NCBI GenBank assembly: GCA_017601395.1
Contig: JAFNIQ010000005.1
Coordinates: forward strand, 1 to 56,090
Direction of reading: 5' to 3'
Length of the DNA stretch: 56,090 bases
From: Candidatus Brockarchaeota archaeon
Lineage (GTDB): Archaea; Thermoproteota; EX4484-205; JAAOZP01
Shown here: piece after piece, positions 49,259 to 52,362 of the stretch
How the letters are laid out: every line of letters starts with the position of its first letter
Position numbering within the stretch: the stretch's first letter is position 1
The notes under the pieces: generated by a model
What the model saw: the letters and a program-made list of their open reading frames with translations, nothing else
The model's database searches: none
Told to the model about the DNA's origin: nothing
Program-made: the position numbers and the translations under genes

Positions 49259-49369
49259 CGAGGCTTTATCACCACTGTTAACAGTAGCGTTTCCAAGCTA
49301 TAAAGGTTTTCCGAGCACTATGCTTTTCTGGGCTGAAAGGCGTATTTTAGAGCATAAAGGCATACTGGC

Positions 49370-50027
49370 TTATTTACGCTTTCTGAGGAGCATTAAACCA
49401 TCTTTCTCGAAGACGTATTCGAAACCCGCTTCCAGAAGCTCTTTAGCCTCCTCTATAGTCTTCGCGACTTTAACCGTAAACTCGTCATTCTCCTCACCTT
49501 AGAGAGCCTTTTCAACCTGGATGTAGAGCATTGTGTTTTCAATATCCTTATGGCCGAGCATCTCTTTAACGTGCAAGATATCCTTAGTTTTATGGTACTC
49601 CATAGTTGCTTTCCAATGCCTAAAGGTGTGGAAGGTTATTCTTAGAAGCCTAGGGTTATTAAGCTTCCTCGCCAGCCTCTTACGTTGGGCCTCGAAATTC
49701 GCCTTAAGCGCCCTATATTGCGTGGGGAAAAGCCTCTCGTTAATCTTAGGCAGCGTGTTGAGCATCCCCATGAGCCTAGGGCTTATTCTGAAGATCCTGG
49801 GGTTAGAGTTCTTCTCAGGCTCGTTCAGGATTATGACTTTCCTCTCCAGGTCTACATCTCTCCAAGTTAGCCTCAACGCTTCTCCTATCCTCATGCCGGT
49901 TTCTTTAAGCAATTGTAGAAGTATGGAGACCTTGGGACCACAGCCAGCTATCAACGCATCCAACTCGCTCTCCAAGGGTATGAAGGGCAGGGGCCCTCTT
50001 ATGAGATCTATATTGTTGCAATATTTT
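49370..50027 (-). pseudogene. Tyrosine recombinase (archaeal integrase) remnant
   Basis: The catalytic half is present: the first Arg in KETGMRIGEALRLTW, HTFRHWKATMEYHKT (HxxR), MLGHKDIENTMLYIQ (His and Tyr). A TAA at 49499-49501 ends the open frame, but the same frame goes on with ENDEFTVKVAKTIEEAKELL, then EAGFEYVFEKDG to RKRK and a stop at 49370; that tail is common in archaeal integrases. Upstream of residue LPFIPLESELDALI the frame reaches NNIDLIRGP and hits a TGA at 50028-50030, so the N-terminal core-binding domain is gone. The break coincides with the end of the ABC permease gene. Confidence 0.82.
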
Positions 50028-50032
50028 TCATC

Positions 50033-50827
50033 TTACAGCACAAGTCCCTCGCAGTATATCTTATTATACCCTTTTCTCAATATACATAGGCCTACCAAGA
50101 ATGTAGAGATAGAGGCGATTATGAAAGTAAAGTACTCCAATGATATAACTGGCAATTCTTCGAAAAGGATCTTGCGCCAAACCAGATAAGCCCATGAATA
50201 TGGTAGAAGCCACACAAATTGTTGTAATATTGGCGGCAATATTGTTAGAGGGAAGTATTGCCCTGAGAACACATATTCGAAGAACCTGAAGGCGAGGCTA
50301 ACGGGCTCGGCTTTTTTGGTAATGTAAACTACGCCGTTCTCAAGAAAGTTTAGACCGATGCTCATTGTCATCCATAACACCAGAAAGAGTAGGATTGATT
50401 CCAATCTCATACTTAAGTTTCTCAAGGACGCGATTGCTATGGCATATATGAGGACAGGATACGCATTAAATTTCACGTATATGCTAAGCCAAGTTTGTAT
50501 TAGAATTAAATATGGGGGAATTGGCCTTGAAAATGAATAATAGAACGAACTCAAGTGAAGCGGGAAGTTATATCTAAATGGATTTGCGATCTGGGAGAGT
50601 AAGAGCCCGGAGAGAATGAATCCTAGCGGCATGCTCACGCCATACTCCAAAATACCCCTCTGGTAGATTATTGAGTAGCCGAGGAAATAATACGTCAGAA
50701 AGGAACCAATAGTCCCAACTGCAGTGGTAACTATAACAGATCTGTATGCAACGATCTCATACCAATTCCCCAGTATCGAGTAATACCATAAGGACCTAAG
50801 CACCGCTTTTATGTTCACTTGCCTCAC
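50033..50827 (-). CDS. ABC-2-type transporter permease
   Basis: 264 residues with six predicted membrane helices (for example VIVTTAVGTIGSFLTYYFLG, FTFIIASISTFLVGLCIL) and no extended loop. GTG start overlapping the ATPase gene by 32 bases. With that ATPase it would form a DrrAB-like exporter, probably for a small molecule or peptide. The encoding DNA is AT-richer than its neighbours, in keeping with transfer. Confidence 0.78.
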   Translation of the reverse strand: MRQVNIKAVLRSLWYYSILGNWYEIVAYRSVIVTTAVGTIGSFLTYYFLGYSIIYQRGILEYGVSMPLGFILSGLLLSQIANPFRYNFPLHLSSFYYSFSRPIPPYLILIQTWLSIYVKFNAYPVLIYAIAIASLRNLSMRLESILLFLVLWMTMSIGLNFLENGVVYITKKAEPVSLAFRFFEYVFSGQYFPLTILPPILQQFVWLLPYSWAYLVWRKILFEELPVISLEYFTFIIASISTFLVGLCILRKGYNKIYCEGLVL

Positions 50828-51797
50828 TTCCTACTAACATTCTGAAGACATCGCTTAATGTGGGCTCCTCATATGTTAATGAAAGTATTTCCGTGCCAGA
50901 CGAGCTGGATAATTCAACTAATCTTTTGGGTTTAAGACTACCTTTAATCGCTTTCACGACGATCGTTGAATCGTCTTTGATCTCGTCGACTTCCGTTACT
51001 CCCTCAATTTTTTCTATCTCGGATCTGAATTCAGAATATCTCCCGCGAACCTTTATCATGATTCGATCATATTTTTGAACCAATCCCTTAAGATCCTTTG
51101 GACTGCCGGAGGTGATCATTTCTCTCTTCAGAAAAATTATTCGATCACAAAGGTATTCCGCTTCTTCCATATTCTGCGTAGTTAGTAATATGGTTTTTCC
51201 ATCATCTTTAAGCTTCTTTAATACTGCCCATATTTCCATGCAAGACAGCGGATCCAAGTGTATCGTTGGTTCATCGAGTACTATACATGGCTTGTCATTC
51301 ATTAGTATTTCGGCTAGCATTAATTTCCTCTGCATACCTGAGGAAAAACGAGCAGGCCATTCGTCTTTCCATGCTAGTAACCCGACGGCCCTAAGTACTT
51401 CCGTCGCTTTCTCCCTAATATTTCCTCTAATGCAATTTATAGCTGCAAGCATCTCTAAGTACTTGATTGCCGGCAAGCGAATGAAGCCTTGTTCAAGATT
51501 CATGTAGCCAGTTAGGTAGAGTGTTATGTATTTTTCACAGACCCTTCGCTTAAGTCTTCGGATGTCCTCTCCCATTATGAACACGGTGCCTCTTGATGGC
51601 TTCAATAACCCGCTTATTATCAGTGATAGAGTAGTCTTTCCAGCACCATTGGGGCCTAATATACCTAAAATCTCACCTTCACTGACATTAAAATTAATTT
51701 CCCTTAAAGCGAGGATTTCTTTTCCCCTTCCTGAATAAGACTTCCATAAATCATCGACAACGATAGGCTCCAACGGAGTCCCTTTTTTAATCAACAT
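50796..51797 (-). CDS. ABC transporter ATPase, DrrA-like
   Basis: Walker A GPNGAGKTT, signature FSSGMQRKLMLAE, Walker B CIVLDEPTIHLD; the H-loop has Gln (LTTQN) in place of His. The C-terminal ~90 residues form the regulatory domain typical of this group. It lies 52 bases after the four-cysteine peptide gene and overlaps the permease gene, so all three probably form one transcript. Confidence 0.88.
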   Translation of the reverse strand: MLIKKGTPLEPIVVDDLWKSYSGRGKEILALREINFNVSEGEILGILGPNGAGKTTLSLIISGLLKPSRGTVFIMGEDIRRLKRRVCEKYITLYLTGYMNLEQGFIRLPAIKYLEMLAAINCIRGNIREKATEVLRAVGLLAWKDEWPARFSSGMQRKLMLAEILMNDKPCIVLDEPTIHLDPLSCMEIWAVLKKLKDDGKTILLTTQNMEEAEYLCDRIIFLKREMITSGSPKDLKGLVQKYDRIMIKVRGRYSEFRSEIEKIEGVTEVDEIKDDSTIVVKAIKGSLKPKRLVELSSSSGTEILSLTYEEPTLSDVFRMLVGSEASEHKSGA

Positions 51798-51849
51798 TCC
51801 GTATACTTAAAAACTTTATTCCAATGCGTTATCATTAAGGCATCTGTTT

Positions 51850-51990
51850 TTATGTTGGACTTTTTTCTGGACCTATCTGACATTTCCAACAGGAACCATC
51901 ACAAGCGATACATAATGGTTCCACTTTATCCTTTTTAGTACTTGGATTAATGACTTTCGCAATAGGTTTCTGATATTTTTCCTTACTCAT
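51850..51990 (-). CDS. 46-residue four-cysteine peptide
   Basis: Too short for standard gene calling but well supported. It begins ATG with TTTGGAGAA just upstream, has a lysine-rich N-terminal half (MSKEKYQKPIAKVINPSTKK), and a compact C-terminal part, CIACDGSCWKCQIG, with four cysteines spaced CxxCxxxCxxC around Gly and Trp. It is the first gene before an ABC exporter. It could be the precursor of a secreted modified peptide, or a small zinc-binding regulator of the transporter; sequence alone does not decide. Confidence 0.55.
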   Translation of the reverse strand: MSKEKYQKPIAKVINPSTKKDKVEPLCIACDGSCWKCQIGPEKSPT

Positions 51991-51993
51991 ATT

Positions 51994-52014
51994 TCTCCAA
52001 AAATTTTTTGGAGA
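51994..52014. promoter_or_regulatory. Perfect 21-base palindrome at the peptide start
   Basis: TCTCCAAAAA, one central base, TTTTTGGAGA, ending four bases before the peptide ATG. On the minus-strand message it overlaps the SD-like GGAGA. It may be an operator or an RNA hairpin hiding the ribosome site. Confidence 0.6.
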
Positions 52015-52095
52015 AGGAGTGAGCATAAGCTTTTTTCTTAAAAAAAGAGTTATTGATCAATTTTATTGTACATGGATCTAACTACTAATGTTTAA

Positions 52096-52128: not shown

Positions 52129-52362
52129 TCAGGCCTTTCTGGGTTTAAAAAACACGACCTCGCCTTTCCCAACTTTCTTGGCGTTTCTTTTTAAAACCAC
52201 CACGGCATAGGGCTCTTTAACTGGACCTATTATGTCTGTAACGCTGCCTATCGGCCTCATTTCCCTGCTTAAGACGAGGGAGCCTAAGCCAACTAGTCCA
52301 TCCAGCCTAACTAGAGCAATCCTGTTGTTAAGAATGTTTTCAACAGTCCCTTTACGTTTCAA
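52129..52362 (-). CDS. gar1: H/ACA RNP protein Gar1
   Basis: 77-residue beta-barrel subunit of the RNA-guided pseudouridylase complex with Cbf5, Nop10 and L7Ae. Motifs: GTVENILNNRIALVRLD, then LGSLVLSREMRPIGSVTDII and GPVKEPYAVV. Its start overlaps the srp19 stop by four bases. Last gene of the rps8e operon. Confidence 0.88.
   Translation of the reverse strand: MKRKGTVENILNNRIALVRLDGLVGLGSLVLSREMRPIGSVTDIIGPVKEPYAVVVLKRNAKKVGKGEVVFFKPRKA

Follow-up and report, generated by a model that had tools for sequence, protein, structure and literature searches.

Characterised RiPP products from archaea are few. Radical SAM RiPP clusters in archaea, TACK lineages included, have already been predicted by genome mining, in a study before which only two haloarchaeal lanthipeptides had been validated (PMC12144867). 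Leaders of the lasso and PQQ type share the RRE-binding consensus [Y/W]xxPx[L/V/I/A/F/Y] (PMC13381572). Because such archaeal clusters have been predicted (PMC12144867), the locus described here is a variant of known systems. It lies in a 56,090-nucleotide stretch of DNA from a Candidatus Brockarchaeota archaeon (the window), in which a small ORF and two exporter genes form a cassette beside a broken integrase gene. The ORF probably codes for an archaeal precursor of the radical SAM RiPP type that would leave the cell through a DrrAB-like pump and that now sits, as an orphan without its maturase, on a mobile element in decay; of the steps in this reading, precursor identity has the best support.

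The peptide gene and the element that carries it

On the minus strand, a four-Cys ORF of 46 codons is followed by a 52-nt gap, a DrrA-like ATPase gene, an overlapping gene for an ABC-2-type permease, and a broken tyrosine integrase gene (Table 1). The preliminary description, made from the letters alone, had listed the 46-codon gene with CIACDGSCWKC 52 bases ahead of an ATPase gene, and the ATPase and permease genes on one strand next to a broken integrase; all of these elements are present, and the integrase gene proves to be doubly broken. The 2.09-kb cassette has a G+C content of 39%, as compared with 47% for the window, and the neighbouring genes (SRP19, Gar1 and an FtsJ-like methyltransferase) are archaeal.

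Table 1. Positions of the cassette, the element ends and associated features in the window
Feature	Position	Strand	Evidence or remark
Peptide ORF, 46 aa, YQKPIA leader motif and CIACDGSCWKC	51850..51990	-	RRE-binding consensus, profile rank
23-bp palindrome TTCTCCAAAAAATTTTTGGAGAA	51993..52015	-	Shine-Dalgarno forms its 3' arm; candidate operator or RNA hairpin
DrrA-like ABC ATPase, 333 aa	50796..51797	-	PF00005 and PF13732 above cut-off
ABC-2-type permease, 264 aa, GTG start, overlaps ATPase end	50033..50827	-	Homology to permeases adjoining ABC ATPases
Cassette DNA missing from the G005 element at the same site	49996..52088	.	Comparison with G005
Tyrosine integrase remnant, C-terminal 158 aa, premature TAA	49499..49975	-	Homology to intact integrase extends to 49995
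attL-like repeat TTTAAACCCAGAAAGGC, 3' end of gar1	52133..52149	-	Overlaps empty sites by 17 bp; G005 has a perfect 17-bp pair
attR-like repeat TTTCAGCCCAGAAAAGC	49322..49338	-	Same empty-site/G005 comparison

The translated peptide is MSKEKYQKPIAKVINPSTKKDKVEPLCIACDGSCWKCQIGPEKSPT. An alternative in-frame ATG upstream, at 52026, would give a product of 58 aa; a Shine-Dalgarno-like GGAGAA is found just ahead of the 46-aa start only. This GGAGAA sits within the palindrome, which is perfect and has no other perfect copy in the window. As RNA, the palindrome folds over the Shine-Dalgarno and the AUG (z = -2.4; 4 of 200 shuffles were equally stable), and it is possibly an operator or a hairpin covering both signals. 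A sigma-70 scan was discarded as not informative for archaea. No Pfam or NCBIfam model matched the peptide at E <= 1, and hence no zinc-ribbon family, homology to which had been named beforehand as a finding that would refute the proposal.

The ORF could instead be a chance or leader-regulatory frame, in which case the ABC transporter would act on its own, exporting for instance drugs or lipids. In codon usage the ORF does not stand out as a host-like gene, the exporter resembles generic DrrAB pairs, and a related exporter has no peptide beside it (see below). Nevertheless, we find this explanation unlikely: when the 291 nt ahead of the ATPase gene were shuffled, 0.6% of the shuffles produced a closed ATG-ORF of 46 codons or more with a Shine-Dalgarno, and the window ORF matches a precursor family and combines a leader motif with Cys residues. 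Since codon usage is not host-like, the motif and the relatives are the stronger evidence for a peptide gene.

The cassette is contained in a decayed element at the 3' end of gar1. In five genomes of the same genus (G002, G003, G004, G006 and G007) the site is empty, with gar1 and an HTH gene adjacent. The closest genome, G005 (dS 0.03-0.13 over five core genes), carries at the same site an intact 5-kb element between perfect 17-bp repeats; the window shares both ends of this element, with 4.75 kb of it replaced by the 2.09-kb cassette. The G005 element (L205:1785-7161) codes for a MazE/AbrB-like protein, a 655-aa protein with no Pfam match and a 439-aa integrase. The window integrase is without about the first 225 residues of its intact relative and is interrupted by a TAA after VEKAL, past which the frame still matches the relative. 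A split integrase of the SSV type was considered and rejected, as the G005 integrase at the same site is intact and the att repeats lie outside int. Because the dS between the two integrases (about 1.4) is far above that of the core genes, the two elements would most simply represent independent integrations at one site.

A remnant of the permease gene is present at another locus in G003, where residues 88-264 are 90% identical to the window permease and the homology stops no more than about a dozen bases from the stop codon that the two share. The remnant (L175:8027-10426) adjoins a nucleotidyltransferase-like gene pair and an unknown 186-aa ORF. Relative to the remnant the permease shows a dN/dS of 0.20 and is under purifying selection. 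Permease dS between the window and G003, also 0.20, is lower than that of five core genes of the same genomes (0.27-0.53), which suggests a more recent exchange, although one short gene is no proof of it.

Relatives of the peptide and the leader motif

No close copy of the peptide was found in genomes of the same genus (missing from all seven searched), of the order or among about 400 of the phylum, nor in phages or viral contigs. In a blind search of 398 genomes a single weak match in frame was obtained, in G164. Its E value of 0.04 per genome is not significant over 398 genomes, and the weight of the match comes from where it lies, as assessed afterwards, and from another relative, in G398. 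The match is a 46-aa ORF, MEASRVGSRGRWVKPIYSVNDPCVAPDRVSPAACFVHCSSCQFGSR, directly ahead of genes for a PqqD-radical SAM-SPASM protein, an ABC ATPase and an ABC-2 permease. The third relative, KKWEKPSYGVNDPCLSPTGVSPNSCFIHCSSCQMGGK, was found in G398 (E 7e-13 to a two-row profile) at a contig end, where a maturase is not visible. When compared with the G398 sequence alone, the window peptide outscores all 3267 background ORFs (shuffle p 0.0016, or 0.009 with Cys positions fixed), and with a profile of G164 and G398 it ranks first of 3268 small ORFs (E 7.5e-4); as G398 was reached through G164, the two tests are not fully independent. Allowing for a two-residue indel, the three sequences have in common KP...V..P......V.P....C...C..CQ.G, the shared residues being KP, V, P, V, P, C, C, C, Q and G.

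The RRE-binding consensus is present in the window peptide (YQKPIA, followed by Cys) and in 6/6 other precursor-like ORFs compared. Together with at least three downstream Cys it occurs in five of 2141 small ORFs, a set drawn from loci enriched for maturase cassettes and hence no measure of a genome-wide rate; three of the five lie directly before PqqD-radical SAM genes and one is the window peptide. The peptide thus has the short length, a leader that fits the RRE-binding consensus and the Cys-containing core of a radical SAM RiPP precursor. As to the search for CxxCxxxCxxC peptides beside such exporters that had been proposed at the outset, a related ORF precedes the maturase-exporter genes of G164, and none lies beside the window-type exporter of G350.

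Several other candidates were set aside. A five-precursor profile was too diverse for use and placed the window peptide third (E 1.4), and weak matches in G366, G078, G378, G098, G333, G375, G169, G073 and G162 were inspected or judged to be chance frames. Scanning genome contigs for CxxCDGxCWxC returned 109 stretches that by inspection are unrelated frames. The pattern scan also yielded frames rich in Cys-Gly repeats (CSGCGGCDGGCWGC...) on the viral contig L063, at 493-525 and 1208-1240, which are unrelated to the peptide.

Maturase cassettes and the exporter

Cassettes with the order precursor, PqqD-radical SAM-SPASM protein, DrrA-like ATPase and ABC-2 permease are found in G164, G307, G011 (same order as the window genome), and G003 and G004 (same genus). 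G152 has a damaged form, and G338 a maturase and exporter with no clear precursor. None of the maturases comes near the cut-off of any NCBIfam family listed. In the complete cassettes of G003 (L245:6312-9800) and G004 (L246:4087-7564) the precursors end ...GHAHAHLKYVADADYDTSP(T/A), and the two genomes have almost the same His/Asp-rich core; for the G003 precursor there is no NCBIfam model, and the maturase of that cassette stays below every cut-off listed.

The preliminary description had seen no modifying enzyme in the cassette. There is none, and a PqqD-radical SAM enzyme was also not found elsewhere in the assembly, an absence that is provisional at 91% completeness. The only PqqD domain in the genome belongs to a 178-aa protein that is kept across the genus and has no adjacent radical SAM gene; it is encoded at L264:728-1264 (contig C4), beside a 302-aa protein and a membrane protein. 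Because no radical SAM/SPASM maturase with an RRE is encoded in the cluster, we do not file the locus as a radical SAM RiPP cluster. The missing enzyme would be expected if the product were an unmodified Cys peptide, disulfide-bonded or metal-binding, secreted through the adjacent transporter with no maturase ever needed, and the peptide and exporter genes are indeed adjacent, co-directional and intact while the integrase has decayed. We judge this quite unlikely, in that the leader motif and the relatives point to RRE-dependent maturation and a hydrophobic signal sequence is not apparent by inspection in the 46 aa. It seems distinctly improbable that the element is a mobile, maturase-free module which supplies only the precursor and its exporter and relies on a radical SAM maturase taken from another system of the host; if it were, peptides of one cluster family would spread independently of their enzyme.

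The window-type ATPases form a clade with those of G350, G245 and G287 (100/99), separate from the maturase-linked clade (100/99). The closest complete relative of the exporter is on contig C65 of G350 (permease 61%, ATPase 51%), where no peptide lies beside the exporter and 108 nt separate it from a divergent ABC gene; the contigs of G245 and G287 end inside the ATPase gene. The permease was not found in a search of plasmids and viral contigs, and PADLOC matches of the ATPase were taken as generic ATPase matches. Another G350 contig of 4 kb (C151; L274:186-3565) carries a broken window-type permease gene, a stop-containing paralogue, together with a second permease most like those of the G003 and G004 maturase cassettes; the pair hints at shared islands. 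A conserved unit of the peptide and this exporter is therefore not supported: the C65 exporter has no peptide, and the exporter clade differs from that of the maturase-linked exporters. What is supported of the proposed secreted or modified peptide system is its precursor-like component, which carries the RRE consensus and has kin heading radical SAM and ABC exporter cassettes, and not a conserved pairing with the exporter.

Decay is frequent around these exporters, as seen in the broken integrase, the truncated G003 permease and the stop-containing paralogue of G350, and the cassette might likewise be a relic that lost its original maturase as the element decayed and from which nothing is made now. 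This we consider very improbable, given that peptide, ATPase and permease all retain open frames. Moreover, had the DNA separating peptide and ATPase simply been deleted, an exporter of the maturase clade would remain, and the window exporter does not belong to that clade.

In the orphaned-precursor reading that we favour, the N-terminal half (KEKYQKPIAKV) would be a leader bound through YxxP by a PqqD-type RRE, and the C-terminal half (CIACDGSCWKC) a core to be cross-linked, probably by thioethers from Cys, through the action of a PqqD-fused radical SAM/SPASM maturase. With the adjacent ABC-2 exporter, the product, which could be bioactive, may be carried over the membrane or, for self-protection, expelled. 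The module may have entered the genome as cargo of, or beside, the site-specific element at the 3' end of gar1. Now without a recognisable maturase, it would be orphaned or would depend on an enzyme outside the assembled sequence.

Comparison with known systems

These comparisons bring together a small precursor family that is tied to PqqD-radical SAM-ABC cassettes and that no NCBIfam model covers, and they provide testable precursor-maturase pairs, for example in G164 and G003. That an orphan copy lies in an integrated element suggests that peptide modules of this type move and decay on mobile DNA.

With DrrAB-type exporters (TIGR01188, PF13732) the window pair shares the ATPase fold, the C-terminal DrrA domain and a separate permease gene. 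However, the ATPase scores 197 bits against the 312-bit cut-off of TIGR01188, its best NCBIfam model, which places it outside the DrrA subfamily as curated, and the permease matches no Pfam family above cut-off. As compared with the cassettes of G164, G307, G011, G003 and G004, the window is without the maturase and has an exporter from another clade, and its precursor has four Cys whereas those of G003 and G004 are His/Asp-rich; the gene order is otherwise the same, as is the leader motif, and the window peptide also shows the longer pattern of G164 and G398. Finally, although no radical SAM maturase is present in the cassette or was found in the assembly, the window has in common with the predicted archaeal radical SAM/SPASM RiPP clusters of the sactipeptide/ranthipeptide type (PMC12144867) a short precursor with a Cys core, an RRE-type leader and an ABC exporter.
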